Shown: piece after piece, positions 2,228 through 58,935 of the stretch
Position numbering within the stretch: position 1 is the stretch's first letter
How the letters are laid out: each line of letters opens with the position of its first letter
NCBI GenBank assembly: GCA_035621215.1
Contig: CP141729.1
Coordinates: 2,378,944 to 2,442,943, forward strand
Length of the DNA stretch: 64,000 nucleotides
Direction of reading: 5' to 3'
From: Oscillospiraceae bacterium MB08-C2-2
Lineage (GTDB): Bacteria > Bacillota > Clostridia > Oscillospirales > Ruminococcaceae
Notes under the pieces: generated by a model
Database searches by the model: none
The model's input: only the letters and a program-made list of their open reading frames with translations
What the model was told of the DNA's origin: nothing
Made by a program: the position numbers and the translations under genes

Positions 2228-2662
2228 ATGAAGCGTCCTCACCCGGCAATGCTCACCATTTGGCGGCTGTATCTTCTGCTGCCGGGGTTTGTGGCGGCCT
2301 TTCTTTCGGCGCTGTTTTTCCAGCCTCGTTCAGTGCCATGGCTGCTGGTGACCGGCCTTTGGGTAGCAGGCTTCTTGTTTATGTACTTTTTTTATCTGCC
2401 CGCCAAATACCACCGGCTTTCTTATACCATAGCGGAGGGGCAGCTGGTGAAGCACAGCGGGGTTTTCTACCGCCGGGTTTTGCGCATGCCTTTGCGCAGT
2501 GTCCGGTATACCTCCCTGTATATGAATCCCTTGGGCAGCTTTTGGAAGATCGGCTCGGTGTTGGTGGTGGCGGCGGGGGGCAGAATGATGCTTCCCGGCC
2601 TGCGGCTGGAGGAAATTGAAAGCCTCAACCGGGCTCTGTTCCCTTCATCTCAGGCAAGGTAG
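2228..2662 (+). CDS. Bacterial PH-domain membrane protein, YdbS-like
   Basis: This is a 144-residue protein with two hydrophobic segments near the N terminus (about residues 10-55) followed by a bPH2-type domain containing the typical stretch KYHRLSYTIAEGQLVKHSG. Length and topology match YdbS of Bacillus. The following gene resembles YdbT, and the two form a pair in Bacillus too, where the YdbST pair has been tied to resistance against some antimicrobial peptides. A role here is inferred only. The ATG follows AAAGGAGGAACTGGATT. The stop codon at 2660-2662 touches the outer stem of a cloverleaf element. Confidence 0.85.
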   Translation: MKRPHPAMLTIWRLYLLLPGFVAAFLSALFFQPRSVPWLLVTGLWVAGFLFMYFFYLPAKYHRLSYTIAEGQLVKHSGVFYRRVLRMPLRSVRYTSLYMNPLGSFWKIGSVLVVAAGGRMMLPGLRLEEIESLNRALFPSSQAR

Positions 2663-2742
2663 GCGGGCGTATCCCGAAGATGCTTTGCATCTTCGGGATC
2701 GGCGGGCTTTGCCCGCTGCTGCGCAAGGCGCAGACGCCCGCC
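2662..2742. repeat. Cloverleaf-shaped inverted-repeat element (family E, copy 1)
   Basis: An outer stem GGCGGGCGT (2662-2670) pairs with ACGCCCGCC (2734-2742). It encloses three hairpins with almost no spacer: ATCCCGAAGATGC/GCATCTTCGGGAT (2671-2699), GCGGGC/GCCCGC (2702-2716) and CTGCGC/GCGCAG (2719-2733), each with a 3-base loop. The element starts at the last base of the upstream stop codon. The same architecture with different arm sequences occurs at 38032-38130. Confidence 0.9.
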
Positions 2743-6065: not shown

Positions 6066-6150
6066 TTGCTTTCTTTTTGAAAAAAGCAAAGTACACAAAG
6101 AAAAACGTACTTTCTTTTTGATAAAAGAAAGTACGCAAAGAAAAACCACT
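6066..6150. repeat. Family A hairpins
   Basis: Two successive poly-T/poly-A hairpins occur. The second, 6106-6135, has arms CGTACTTTCTTTT and AAAAGAAAGTACG, followed by the family signature GCAAAGAAAAACCACTT. The core CTTTCTTTTT/AAAAGAAAG is shared with many other intergenic sites in the window, while the stem-base bases differ in a paired way. Confidence 0.8.
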
Positions 6151-12990: not shown

Positions 12991-13025
12991 AGCGAACGGC
13001 TGCGGCTGTTCGCTTTTCTTTATTT
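12991..13025 (+). terminator. Intrinsic terminator
   Basis: AGCGAAC pairs with GTTCGCT (12991-13014), with GGC/GCT in the loop, followed by TTTCTTTATTT. It closes the transcript that includes the structured RNA at 12.8-12.9 kb. Confidence 0.85.
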
Positions 13026-13027
13026 AG

Positions 13028-13195
13028 CGTCTGCTAAACAATTCAAAAATGCAACAACAGCAGTACTTTTCAGGCCGTCAATCCATGTATCTGAAACGGT
13101 AAAACAGACCTGTTTTGCCGTCAAACAGAGCGAATATTGCTTTGTTTGCAAATGCGTTTTGCAAAGCGCATTTATTCATTGGACATTATTTAAAC
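13028..13195. repeat. Family B multi-hairpin element, short copy
   Basis: The element begins TCTGCTAAACAATTCAAAAA and ends near ATTGGACATTATTTAAA. It contains ACGGTAAAACAG/CTGTTTTGCCGT-type, AAACAGAG/CTTTGTTT-type and AAATGCG/CGCATTT hairpins. The same modules occur in inverted orientation at 55682-55947, where two extra hairpins are present. Confidence 0.85.
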
Positions 13196-15451: not shown

Positions 15452-15861
15452 AGTATTGCATAAACTCCTTCTTAAAAACTGGATAAAACAGCTTGTTATT
15501 CTTTATTATAACACAAAACAGGAACGGCCGCAGGTTTCTCTGCTTTTTGCGGCATCTCATTCATCACTCCCGCACTCATGCCGTGCGGCTGGCACATCCT
15601 TTCAGGCGCTTACATTTTCTGCGGAAAATGTAGAGGTGGCCTTCAGCCACGAAGCGCCTCATGGGGGAACTAGTTCCCCCATGTTCCCCCTCCAGCCTTC
15701 GGCGGGAATTAAACCACAGTTTGGCTTTCCTTAAAAAAAGGAAGGTTCAAGGAAAAGGGTTTACCCTAATTGTAAACAGGCCTCACAAAACGATAGCTAT
15801 TGGGCGCAAAGACGTGGAGTTATGCCTTGCCTAAGCCCGAAATAAGAGGCTAAGCCCTCCA
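15452..15861. repeat. Family A element region
   Basis: About 400 bases without a gene. The core at 15565-15720 has CACTCCCGCACTCATGCCG, hairpin ACATTTTC/GAAAATGT (15612-15631) and CATGGGGGAAC/GTTCCCCCATG (15660-15683). The same modules recur at 42.9-43.0 kb with a compensatory change in the first hairpin. A TCCTT/AAGGA hairpin is near 15728-15745. Confidence 0.8.
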
Positions 15862-23483: not shown

Positions 23484-23870
23484 CTTCCTTTTCTTTTTGA
23501 AAAAAAAGGAAGCAAAAGAAAAACCACTTGAGGCTTCGCCTCTTTCGTCGGGCTTAAGCTGATTAAAATCGTTCGCTTGGCGCACGATGGCAGAATGAAG
23601 AGCAAAAAGCCTTATCTGCCGCCAGAGACGGCTTTTTTCTTTGATGGCTTTCTTTTTCAGCCAAAAAGAAAGCCATTGCCTGTGCGGCATAAGCACGACC
23701 GAAGCTTCATGGGTTTTATACGGCTATATCTAGGCGGTGGGGTAACAAGGGGCTTGCCCCTTGGCGATTCTTTGCACACTTTCTCATCGTGGAGAAAGTG
23801 TGTGCCCGGCACGGCATGAGTGCCAAGTGTCAAACTGCACTTGGTGAAATCTAAGAAAAATAAGATCCCC
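23484..23870. repeat. Family A element
   Basis: The left hairpin CTTCCTTTT/AAAAGGAAG (23484-23512) starts one base after the ftsK stop codon, followed by GCAAAAGAAAAACCACTT. The right hairpin ATGGCTTTCTTTTT/AAAAAGAAAGCCAT (23644-23676) is preceded by TTTTTTCTTTG. Further right come CAAGGGG/CCCCTTG and ACTTTCTC/GAGAAAGT hairpins and GGCACGGCATGAGTGC. No gene is seen in 23484-23990; a TTGGCTTTT/AAAAGCCAA hairpin is near 23900. Confidence 0.85.
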
Positions 23871-37318: not shown

Positions 37319-38031
37319 TGCCCGGCCCCATGGAAGAGCTGCAATTCCGGGTGGCGGAGTTTGAAGGCCCGCTGGATTTGCTTCTGGTGCTGATCACCCG
37401 CCATAAGATGGATATTTTTAATATTGAGATATCCGCCCTGCTGGCCCAGTATCTGGCGGCCATCGAGCAGATGAAGGAACAGGATCTGGATGTTGCCAGT
37501 GAATTTCTGGAAATGGCCAGCCGCCTTGTTTATATGAAAACCGTTTCTCTTCTGCCTCGCCATGAGGAAGAAAACCAGCGCTTGCAGCAGGAGCTGACCG
37601 GCCAGCTGTTGGAGCTTCGCCTGTGCAAGGCGGTGGCCCGGCTGTTGGGGGAGAGGAACCTTGCCTCTGACCTGTTTGTTCGGGAGCCTATGCCGCTGCC
37701 GGTGGATCAGACCTATACGCTGGTGCATCCGCGGGGGGTGCTGTTTGATGCCTATGCCGATGCGGTAGGCCGTGAGGCCCGCCGCCGCCCGCCGCCGGAG
37801 GAAACCTTCCGCCCGTTGGTGGCACACCCCATGGTCAGCGTTACCTCCAAAATCTTTACCGTTCTGCGGGCCTTGCGCCGCCGGGAAAAGGTGCCTATGG
37901 GGGAGCTTTTTGAGAAAAGCGGCGGCCGCAGCGGCATGGTGGCCACCTTTTTGGCTCTGCTGGAGCTGGTGCATTCCCAGCGCATTGTGGTACGGGAGGG
38001 AGAGGTTCTCTCCAAGCCTCGCCGCCGCTGA
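37318..38031 (+). CDS. scpA: Segregation and condensation protein A
   Basis: A 237-residue ScpA kleisin that bridges SMC and ScpB in chromosome condensation. The N-terminal signature VAEFEGPLDLLLVLITRHKMDI and the C-terminal winged-helix segment are visible. The start ATG shares its A with the stop of the preceding protease gene. Its own stop codon at 38029-38031 is immediately followed by the cloverleaf element that separates it from scpB. Confidence 0.95.
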   Translation: MPGPMEELQFRVAEFEGPLDLLLVLITRHKMDIFNIEISALLAQYLAAIEQMKEQDLDVASEFLEMASRLVYMKTVSLLPRHEEENQRLQQELTGQLLELRLCKAVARLLGERNLASDLFVREPMPLPVDQTYTLVHPRGVLFDAYADAVGREARRRPPPEETFRPLVAHPMVSVTSKIFTVLRALRRREKVPMGELFEKSGGRSGMVATFLALLELVHSQRIVVREGEVLSKPRRR

Positions 38032-38130
38032 GCCGCCTGCCTTTTCCACAGAGCACACTAGGCTCTGTGGAAAACTCCGCAAAGGCCAAAGGTCTTGCGG
38101 AGCGCCGGCTTTGCCGGCGGGGCAGGCGGC
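38032..38130. repeat. Cloverleaf-shaped inverted-repeat element (family E, copy 2)
   Basis: The outer stem GCCGCCTGCC (38032-38041) pairs perfectly with GGCAGGCGGC (38121-38130). Three hairpins lie inside: TTTTCCACAGAGC/GCTCTGTGGAAAA (38042-38074), CTCCGCAA/TTGCGGAG (38075-38102) and CGCCGGC/GCCGGCG (38103-38119). It begins at the base after the scpA stop. It shares topology but no arm sequence with 2662-2742. Confidence 0.9.
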
Positions 38131-42869: not shown

Positions 42870-43150
42870 AAAGAGAAGGCAAGCAAAAGAAAGCTGCTTT
42901 TAGGGCTATAGTATAACTGCATTTTCTGTGGAAAATGCACAGGTGGCTTCCGCATGCTACAGCCACGAAGCGCCTCATGGGGGAACGAGTTCCCCCATGA
43001 ACCCCCTCCAGCCTCCAGCAGGGAAAAGAGGCGGCCTTCTTTTCCCTTGGTTCTGCCATCGTGTGCAAAGAGAATGCTTTTAATCAGCTTAAGCCCGACA
43101 AAAGGGACGAAGTCCCCCCCCTTTGCTTTTCTGCAAAGGGTATTTTTTTG
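42870..43150. repeat. Family A element
   Basis: The element carries GCATTTTC/GAAAATGC (42919-42938), CATGGGGGAAC/GTTCCCCCATG (42976-42999) and later GACAAAAGGGACGAAG. The first two modules match 15612-15683, with GC-GC paired instead of AC-GT at the stem end. Confidence 0.8.
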
Positions 43151-55681: not shown

Positions 55682-55947
55682 CAAATTATATAATGTCCAC
55701 TGAACAAATGCGCTTTGCGAAGCGCATTTGCAAACAGAGCAAAAATTGCTCTGTTTGACGGCAAAACAGGCCTGTTTTGCCGTTTTAGAACCATTGATTG
55801 ACTGCCTGAAAGGATTTGCGGACACACGCCGCAAATCCTTTGTGCAAGGTTTTTGGCCGAATTCGGCAAAAACCTTGCACCTAAACAATCCAAAAGCGCC
55901 GTCAAAGTATTGCTGTTGTTACGTTTTTGAATTGTTTAGCAGGCATT
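55682..55947. repeat. Family B multi-hairpin element, long copy
   Basis: Five hairpins in a row: AAATGCGCT/AGCGCATTT (55706-55729), CAAACAGAGC/GCTCTGTTTG (55731-55757), the perfect 26-base palindrome at 55758-55783, AGGATTTGCGG/CCGCAAATCCT (55811-55839) and GTGCAAGG/CCTTGCAC (55842-55880). The end CTAAACAAT/ATTGTTTAG (55881-55939) encloses the terminal module. Compared with 13028-13195, it is inverted and has two extra hairpins in the middle. Confidence 0.9.
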
Positions 55948-55983
55948 ATATAAACGCAATATGCAAAAAAGTAGCAAAAAAAG

Positions 55984-58743: not shown

Positions 58744-58935
58744 TTATACCCCCTATGGGGGGCATCCAATGCCCCCCATAGGCCCCCCGGATTGCGCCGC
58801 TGCGGCGCAAAAGGCGGGATTCCTGCGTCGAAATCAATTCGACGCAGGAAGAATTACGAATCAAAACCACAACGTCTTCAAGCTGAAGGCTGTTATGTCT
58901 ACAGTCTGGAACACCCCTCAGAATGAGGGCATTTT
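58744..58935. repeat. Family D multi-hairpin element, copy 2
   Basis: Hairpins are CCTATGGGGGGCAT/ATGCCCCCCATAGG (58752-58782), TTGCGCCGC/GGCGCAA (58792-58810) and TCCTGCGTCGAA/TTCGACGCAGGA (58821-58849), then GAATTACGAATCAAAACCA and CTTCA/TGAAG. Copy 1 at 36405-36600 has the same frame with paired substitutions. Confidence 0.9.

Follow-up and report, generated by a model that had tools for sequence, protein, structure and literature searches.

Short interspersed palindromes are usually detected and defined by sequence. Bacterial MITEs such as Correia/NEMIS, RUP, BOX and ERIC are non-coding and intergenic, have short inverted terminal repeats and an AT-rich target, are present in tens of copies and give stable transcript folds. 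The REPs of E. coli are short single palindromes with a common consensus and hundreds of copies. Stop-proximal REPs are GC-rich palindromic structures that lie in sense orientation up to 15 nt past a stop codon and carry no terminator tail. At this distance REPs cause ribosomes to stall, reduce translation and trigger cleavage of the mRNA, and exonucleases are slowed or blocked by REP structures (PMC12306157). A description of bacterial cloverleaf repeats was not found in the open-access literature searched.

The window analyzed here is a stretch of 64,000 nucleotides of Oscillospiraceae bacterium MB08-C2-2 (contig CP141729.1, positions 2,378,944–2,442,943). A preliminary description placed two cloverleaf elements in it, at 2662–2742 and 38032–38130, with outer stems of 9 and 10 pairs and three hairpins each. 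The sequence and the RNAfold models agree with these positions and with this architecture. The elements and their neighboring genes are as follows.

2228..2662, plus strand, gene upstream of the first element, bPH_2 (YdbS-like), 144 aa, Pfam PF03703
2662..2742, plus strand, class II cloverleaf 1 (for the class, see below), first base doubles as the third base of the upstream stop codon
2662..2670 (GGCGGGCGT) and 2734–2742 (ACGCCCGCC), plus strand, 5′ and 3′ arms of the 9-bp outer stem, from sequence and fold
2671..2699, plus strand, hairpin 1, 13 bp, TTT loop
2700..2718, plus strand, hairpin 2, 8 bp including one G-T, TTT loop
2719..2733, plus strand, hairpin 3, 6 bp, AAG loop
2784..4226, plus strand, gene downstream of the first element, bPH_2 (YdbT-like), 480 aa, Pfam PF03703
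37273..38031, plus strand, scpA, Pfam PF02616
38032..38130, plus strand, class II cloverleaf 2, first base directly 3′ of the scpA stop codon
38032..38041 (GCCGCCTGCC) and 38121–38130 (GGCAGGCGGC), plus strand, 5′ and 3′ arms of the 10-bp outer stem, from sequence and fold
38042..38074, plus strand, hairpin 1, 12–13 bp, 7-nt loop
38075..38102, plus strand, hairpin 2, 12 bp, one bulged A and one G-T
38103..38119, plus strand, hairpin 3, 7 bp, TTT loop
38210..38785, plus strand, scpB, Pfam PF04079

The folding energies are −63.8 kcal/mol for 2662–2742 and −75.2 kcal/mol for 38032–38130 (RNAfold), with a z of −9.1 in each case; 200 dinucleotide shuffles of each element include none that is equally stable. 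The hairpins had been called perfect and packed without spacers. The first term does not apply to the middle hairpin of 38032–38130, with its bulged A and G-T pair. The second is exact for 2662–2742, where all loops are 3 nt in length, and nearly so for 38032–38130, where the spacers are 0–1 nt. The arms of the two elements show no mutual match, as had been reported.

Both elements start right at the upstream stop codon, a feature on which the preliminary description was silent. TAG at 2660–2662 is the stop of the YdbS-like gene and cloverleaf 2662–2742 begins there; TGA at 38029–38031 is the scpA stop and cloverleaf 38032–38130 begins at the next base. Pfam confirms the same-strand paired neighbors, bPH_2/bPH_2 (YdbS/YdbT-like) and ScpA/ScpB. 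The paired-gene setting is found at both of these loci but is of secondary weight for the class to which they belong, whose members share a position 0–15 nt behind a stop codon.

Intrinsic (Rho-independent) terminators likewise have a GC-rich hairpin behind a gene. Unlike these, the two elements have no T-tract and have three hairpins within a closed outer stem. No intrinsic terminator or promoter pattern matches at 2662–2742 and no terminator pattern at 38032–38130. With the T-tract absent at both, identity as intrinsic terminators was rejected. The outline resembles that of tRNA, but the reported elements differ by their long arms and 3-nt loops and match no tRNA model. Rfam 15 detects only two tRNAs, a TPP element and 6S in the window, none at the reported elements, and a known RNA family or tRNA was rejected as their identity. 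In contrast to MITEs, they have no terminal repeats, no copy number and no target duplication. There is no second copy of either in the 3.29 Mb genome, and no homologue of either was found.

Neither element is present in the congeners at the same place. The cloverleaf is absent from the segment downstream of scpA in nine congeners and from the region before the ydbT homologues in seven. Because these loci lack the cloverleaf, the reported elements are not ancient parts of their operons, and a conserved operon RNA of scpAB or ydbST is ruled out. A count of cloverleafs behind 770 long-ORF stops in 387 kb of congener DNA gave zero. The frequency in this genome predicts only about 1.4 for such a sample, so that this zero does not establish absence. 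The GC-rich outer-stem pattern GGCGGGCG..CGCCCGCC, also sought in congeners and then rejected, marks cloverleafs only at 2662 and L193:7439; its matches in other species appear by eye to be coding sequence.

The chromosome was scanned for cloverleafs stretch by stretch, covering 2.06 Mb (63%). An initial descriptor that accepted perfect arms only caught 2662–2742 and missed 38032–38130, therefore the later scans permit wobbles or use RNAfold. The later descriptor has no sequence term; it calls for an outer stem of at least 5, packed near-perfect hairpins and a summed score of at least 25. On 864 kb it gave 25 three-hairpin elements and three each with two, four and five hairpins. Three shuffles of the same 864 kb gave a single hit in all, with four hairpins, and no three-hairpin hit. 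Such a comparison had been proposed as the refutation of the one-fold, many-sequences pattern; the real hits far exceed the shuffles, and the pattern extends genome-wide. A separately defined scan based on RNAfold agrees with this: 464 kb of real sequence gave eight three-branched hits, and the shuffled sequence six hits, two-branched without exception.

We see two classes among the cloverleafs of this genome, and both reported elements are in class II. Its members are solo and single copy, with a GC content of 0.58–0.76, lengths of 71–99 nt, folds of −53 to −76 kcal/mol and no TATA or TAATG ends. There are seven in the scanned 63% of the genome; each follows a stop codon in sense orientation, at a distance of at most about 15 nt. 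The five others are as follows.

L015:8663–8760, class II cloverleaf, behind the adenylosuccinate lyase gene (Pfam)
L193:7439–7521, class II cloverleaf, behind cobS (CobS, Pfam)
L162:4587–4665, minus strand, class II cloverleaf, behind an oppF-like gene (OppF-like ABC ATPase, Pfam)
L216:1927–1997, class II cloverleaf, behind a chorismate-mutase-like gene recognized by eye only
near L208:3300–3382, minus strand, class II cloverleaf, post-stop

The gap between stop codon and cloverleaf is 0 nt at 2662, 38032 and L193, 5 nt at L015, 8 nt at L216, 12–13 nt at L162 and about 9–15 nt at L208. Upstream genes identified with Pfam are intact (YdbS-like bPH_2, ScpA, CobS, OppF-like ABC ATPase and adenylosuccinate lyase). 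The cloverleafs at L216 and L015 precede promoter-like sequence, and for these two a location inside an operon is not clear.

Six of the seven class II elements were recovered by a scan blind to position. The position test used the 36 cloverleafs in which 80% or more of the bases are paired. Six of seven GC-rich cloverleafs in this sample are within 15 nt behind a stop, as are two of the 29 others (Fisher 9.5e-5, with a GC cut-off set after the first cases had been seen and with ORF-based gene calls, some ORFs being perhaps spurious). The seventh GC-rich cloverleaf, L191:5987, is not post-stop and belongs to a repeat family. The reverse search ranked by stability the 110-nt segments downstream of 3,821 long-ORF stops in 2.06 Mb. 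The most stable segments are nearly all cloverleafs: 38032, L015:8663, L162:4587 (minus), L208:3395 (minus), L193:7439, 2662 and L216:1927.

The bulk of the cloverleafs are class I, which is dispersed, AT-flanked and MITE-like and comprises many sequence families. Like MITEs, class I elements have multiple copies (about 30 and about 10 in the two families below), conserved inverted ends (TATAGT..ACTATA or TAATGTCC..GGCATTA), no ORF and an AT-rich target; they are intergenic and their transcripts would fold stably. Unlike MITEs, they are built from a three-hairpin cloverleaf or from two, which are often mirrored, with one architecture in many sequence families. There are known relatives for each half of the population, MITEs for class I and stop-proximal REPs for class II. 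The strong post-stop bias of class II is absent in class I.

Family A, pattern GTATAG [GTTTAAAACC..] [AGCGGC..] a [ACCGCC..] CTATAC
55687..55954, plus strand, family B double cloverleaf (class I), with cloverleafs at 55700–55788 and 55803–55945 and ends TAATGTCC...GGCATTA
13019..13193, minus strand, family B copy, internally deleted, match at C1:2391962–2392136
Y1 (IS200-type) transposase genes, for example G000:C1 337296–337652, and 13 further places

Family A is present about 30 times in the genome, and one congener (G008) has relatives that are about 75% identical. Class I elements are often double, with two mirrored cloverleafs back to back whose hairpins run long-mid-short and then short-mid-long. 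One such double joins family A to a second cloverleaf with ATACTCAT arms. Others are found at L161:9884–10048, L161:10344–10511, L159:8711–8878 and L215:4953–5118; in congener G008 there is one at L103:18726–18883. Family B is about 267 bp in length. Ten of its genomic copies are near full-length, one of them in the window (55687–55954). Most family B copies have flanks compatible with a 2-bp TA/AA duplication, as judged from filled sites alone. PF13358 (DDE_3, the IS630-type transposase) has no hits in the genome, and an IS630/Tc1-mariner type mobilizer for class I was rejected as far as DDE_3 is concerned. For RAYT, the REP-associated tyrosine transposase, the genome was examined with Y1_Tnp, which is present in 14 near-identical short copies (148–156 aa) that resemble the IS200 type, plus fragments. 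The copies are near-identical and therefore recently active.

The two families differ in how their stems change. In family B, 10 pairs are altered on both sides compared with 4.4 in shuffles (one of 500 shuffles reaches 10), and there are 12 two-sided change cells compared with 4.9 (none of 500). A control with the partner slid gives only 1–3 two-sided pairs, and stem sites vary at about half the frequency of loop sites. Because compensatory changes keep the pairing, structure is constrained in family B. In family A, stem substitutions are mostly uncompensated and pair-breaking, and G-T is about equal to A-C when the variable pair 17–23 is excluded; the stem changes fit decay following insertion. 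In the remaining class I families, homologous copies have 17 two-sided changes, mainly isolated, and G-T and A-C are both 14. The G-T and A-C counts are without clear bias and give no sign of selection on the RNA strand in class I. Pairing seems to matter during the spread of class I elements. The suggestion that a repair or replication process rewrites the arms symmetrically is not supported, as the two-sided changes are mostly isolated single base pairs and family A stems are mostly broken by their substitutions.

For class II we consider it about evenly balanced whether these elements are lineage-specific, solo GC-rich post-stop cloverleafs which act on the upstream mRNA or ribosome in the manner of stop-proximal REPs. 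We infer that class II originated in this lineage alone, most likely by insertion or by local hairpin expansion in the gap behind a gene, and that it functions in the transcript. With the class I population it shares the outer stem and three hairpins, packed as a four-way junction. Transcription through the cloverleaf would place a block of −53 to −76 kcal/mol a few bases past the terminating ribosome. This block may hinder the terminating ribosome, halt 3′-to-5′ exonucleases or both, and the output of the upstream gene would then be set relative to that of the downstream gene. The action would be driven by structure and not by sequence, and where an element separates paired genes the ratio of the proteins could be affected. 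The reported elements resemble stop-proximal REPs in location (0 and 0 nt behind the stop), but a shared multi-copy consensus was not found; class II consists of cloverleafs of 71–99 nt, one copy each, with no common sequence. G-T exceeds A-C by about 4 to 1 in the sense orientation of class II, by eye, which is too few for a claim of selection at the RNA level.

Alternatively, class II could be old, drifted mobile elements of class I that have no function themselves and survive behind stop codons, where they are least harmful; we regard this as possible but rather unlikely. In a compact genome insertions are tolerated chiefly in the gaps between genes, and this would by itself favor sites beside stop codons. 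The three-hairpin architecture is common to both classes, the families of class I are each scattered in many copies with family A decaying once inserted, and in L193:7439 the long hairpin has a class I-like CAAAAC core and is accompanied by a small TGCGCAAAGCGCA hairpin. Drift of this kind is however difficult to reconcile with stems that are GC-rich and nearly perfect, unlike those of decaying copies, with the lack of TATA/TAATG ends and of class I copies that match in sequence, and with a strong post-stop position which class I does not have. A point against our main reading is that neither a mobilizer nor a duplicated target was found for class II, the flanks of both reported elements being without duplication.

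The architecture may instead be mutational and not selected, with template switching (quasipalindrome correction) in replication making and keeping perfect hairpins, which is a known source of both their creation and their mending (PMC8794818). This would leave single-copy perfect hairpins with unrelated arms, and some families do hold the core and vary the foot symmetrically. It predicts neither three hairpins with an outer stem nor a post-stop site, class I two-sided changes are mostly lone pairs and not runs (two cases involve two adjacent pairs), and family A stems are broken, not mended; we consider it improbable. We give still less credence to class II as cis elements for processing by RNase III or a similar enzyme, or for attenuation inside operons. 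Its members have long perfect stems within presumptive operons, and there is a precedent in Neisseria, where RNase III cuts Correia-containing transcripts at the terminal repeats (PMC10969869). Single stems are however merely 6–13 bp, and the elements at L216 and L015, two of the seven, are those that precede promoter-like sequence. In a wider reading, the three-hairpin cloverleaf would be a unit that is recognized or selected in this genome almost regardless of sequence, a mobile DNA module in class I (in mirrored pairs) and a post-stop mRNA module in class II. We put this forward as a speculation that is more probably wrong than right.

If true, these would be a class of interspersed elements defined by structure and not by sequence. 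The open-access literature searched gave no precedent for three-hairpin architecture across unrelated sequences, for mirror doubles or for a post-stop class of single-copy elements. The set is visible by architecture alone, and thus sequence-based repeat finders would miss its single-copy members. The exact post-stop position allows a direct test of whether a sequence-independent stable RNA fold determines how much the upstream gene yields. The mirror double cloverleafs raise the question of which transposase or replication process requires such a shape.

Further hairpin repeats are present in the window and elsewhere in the genome. Those at window positions 6106, 19023, 19237, 23644, 32664 and 47084 have a fixed CTTTCTTTTT/AAAAAGAAAG core and conserved flanks, and their foot varies yet stays complementary. 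A three-hairpin repeat, GGGGTAC[CAAGGGG..][GCGATTCTTTGC][..CTTTCTCATCGTGGAGAAAG..]GTGCCCC, is found at window positions 23735–23812, at L191:5987–6058 and at L086:10841–10908, and the foot of its third hairpin differs between copies on both sides. Another repeat, with hairpins GAGGGTGTAGAC..GTCTACACCCTC and TATGGGGGGCATCC..ATGCCCCCCATA, is at L160:16808, L191:12600 (minus), L151:1371 (minus), L092:400 (minus) and L014:10595. It is frequently post-stop, and a related hairpin is present at window position 58752. Window positions 15604–15659 and 42955–43020 display a AGCCACGAAGCGCCT-containing repeat with hairpins, one copy of which forms a two-hairpin element closed by a 7-bp outer stem.
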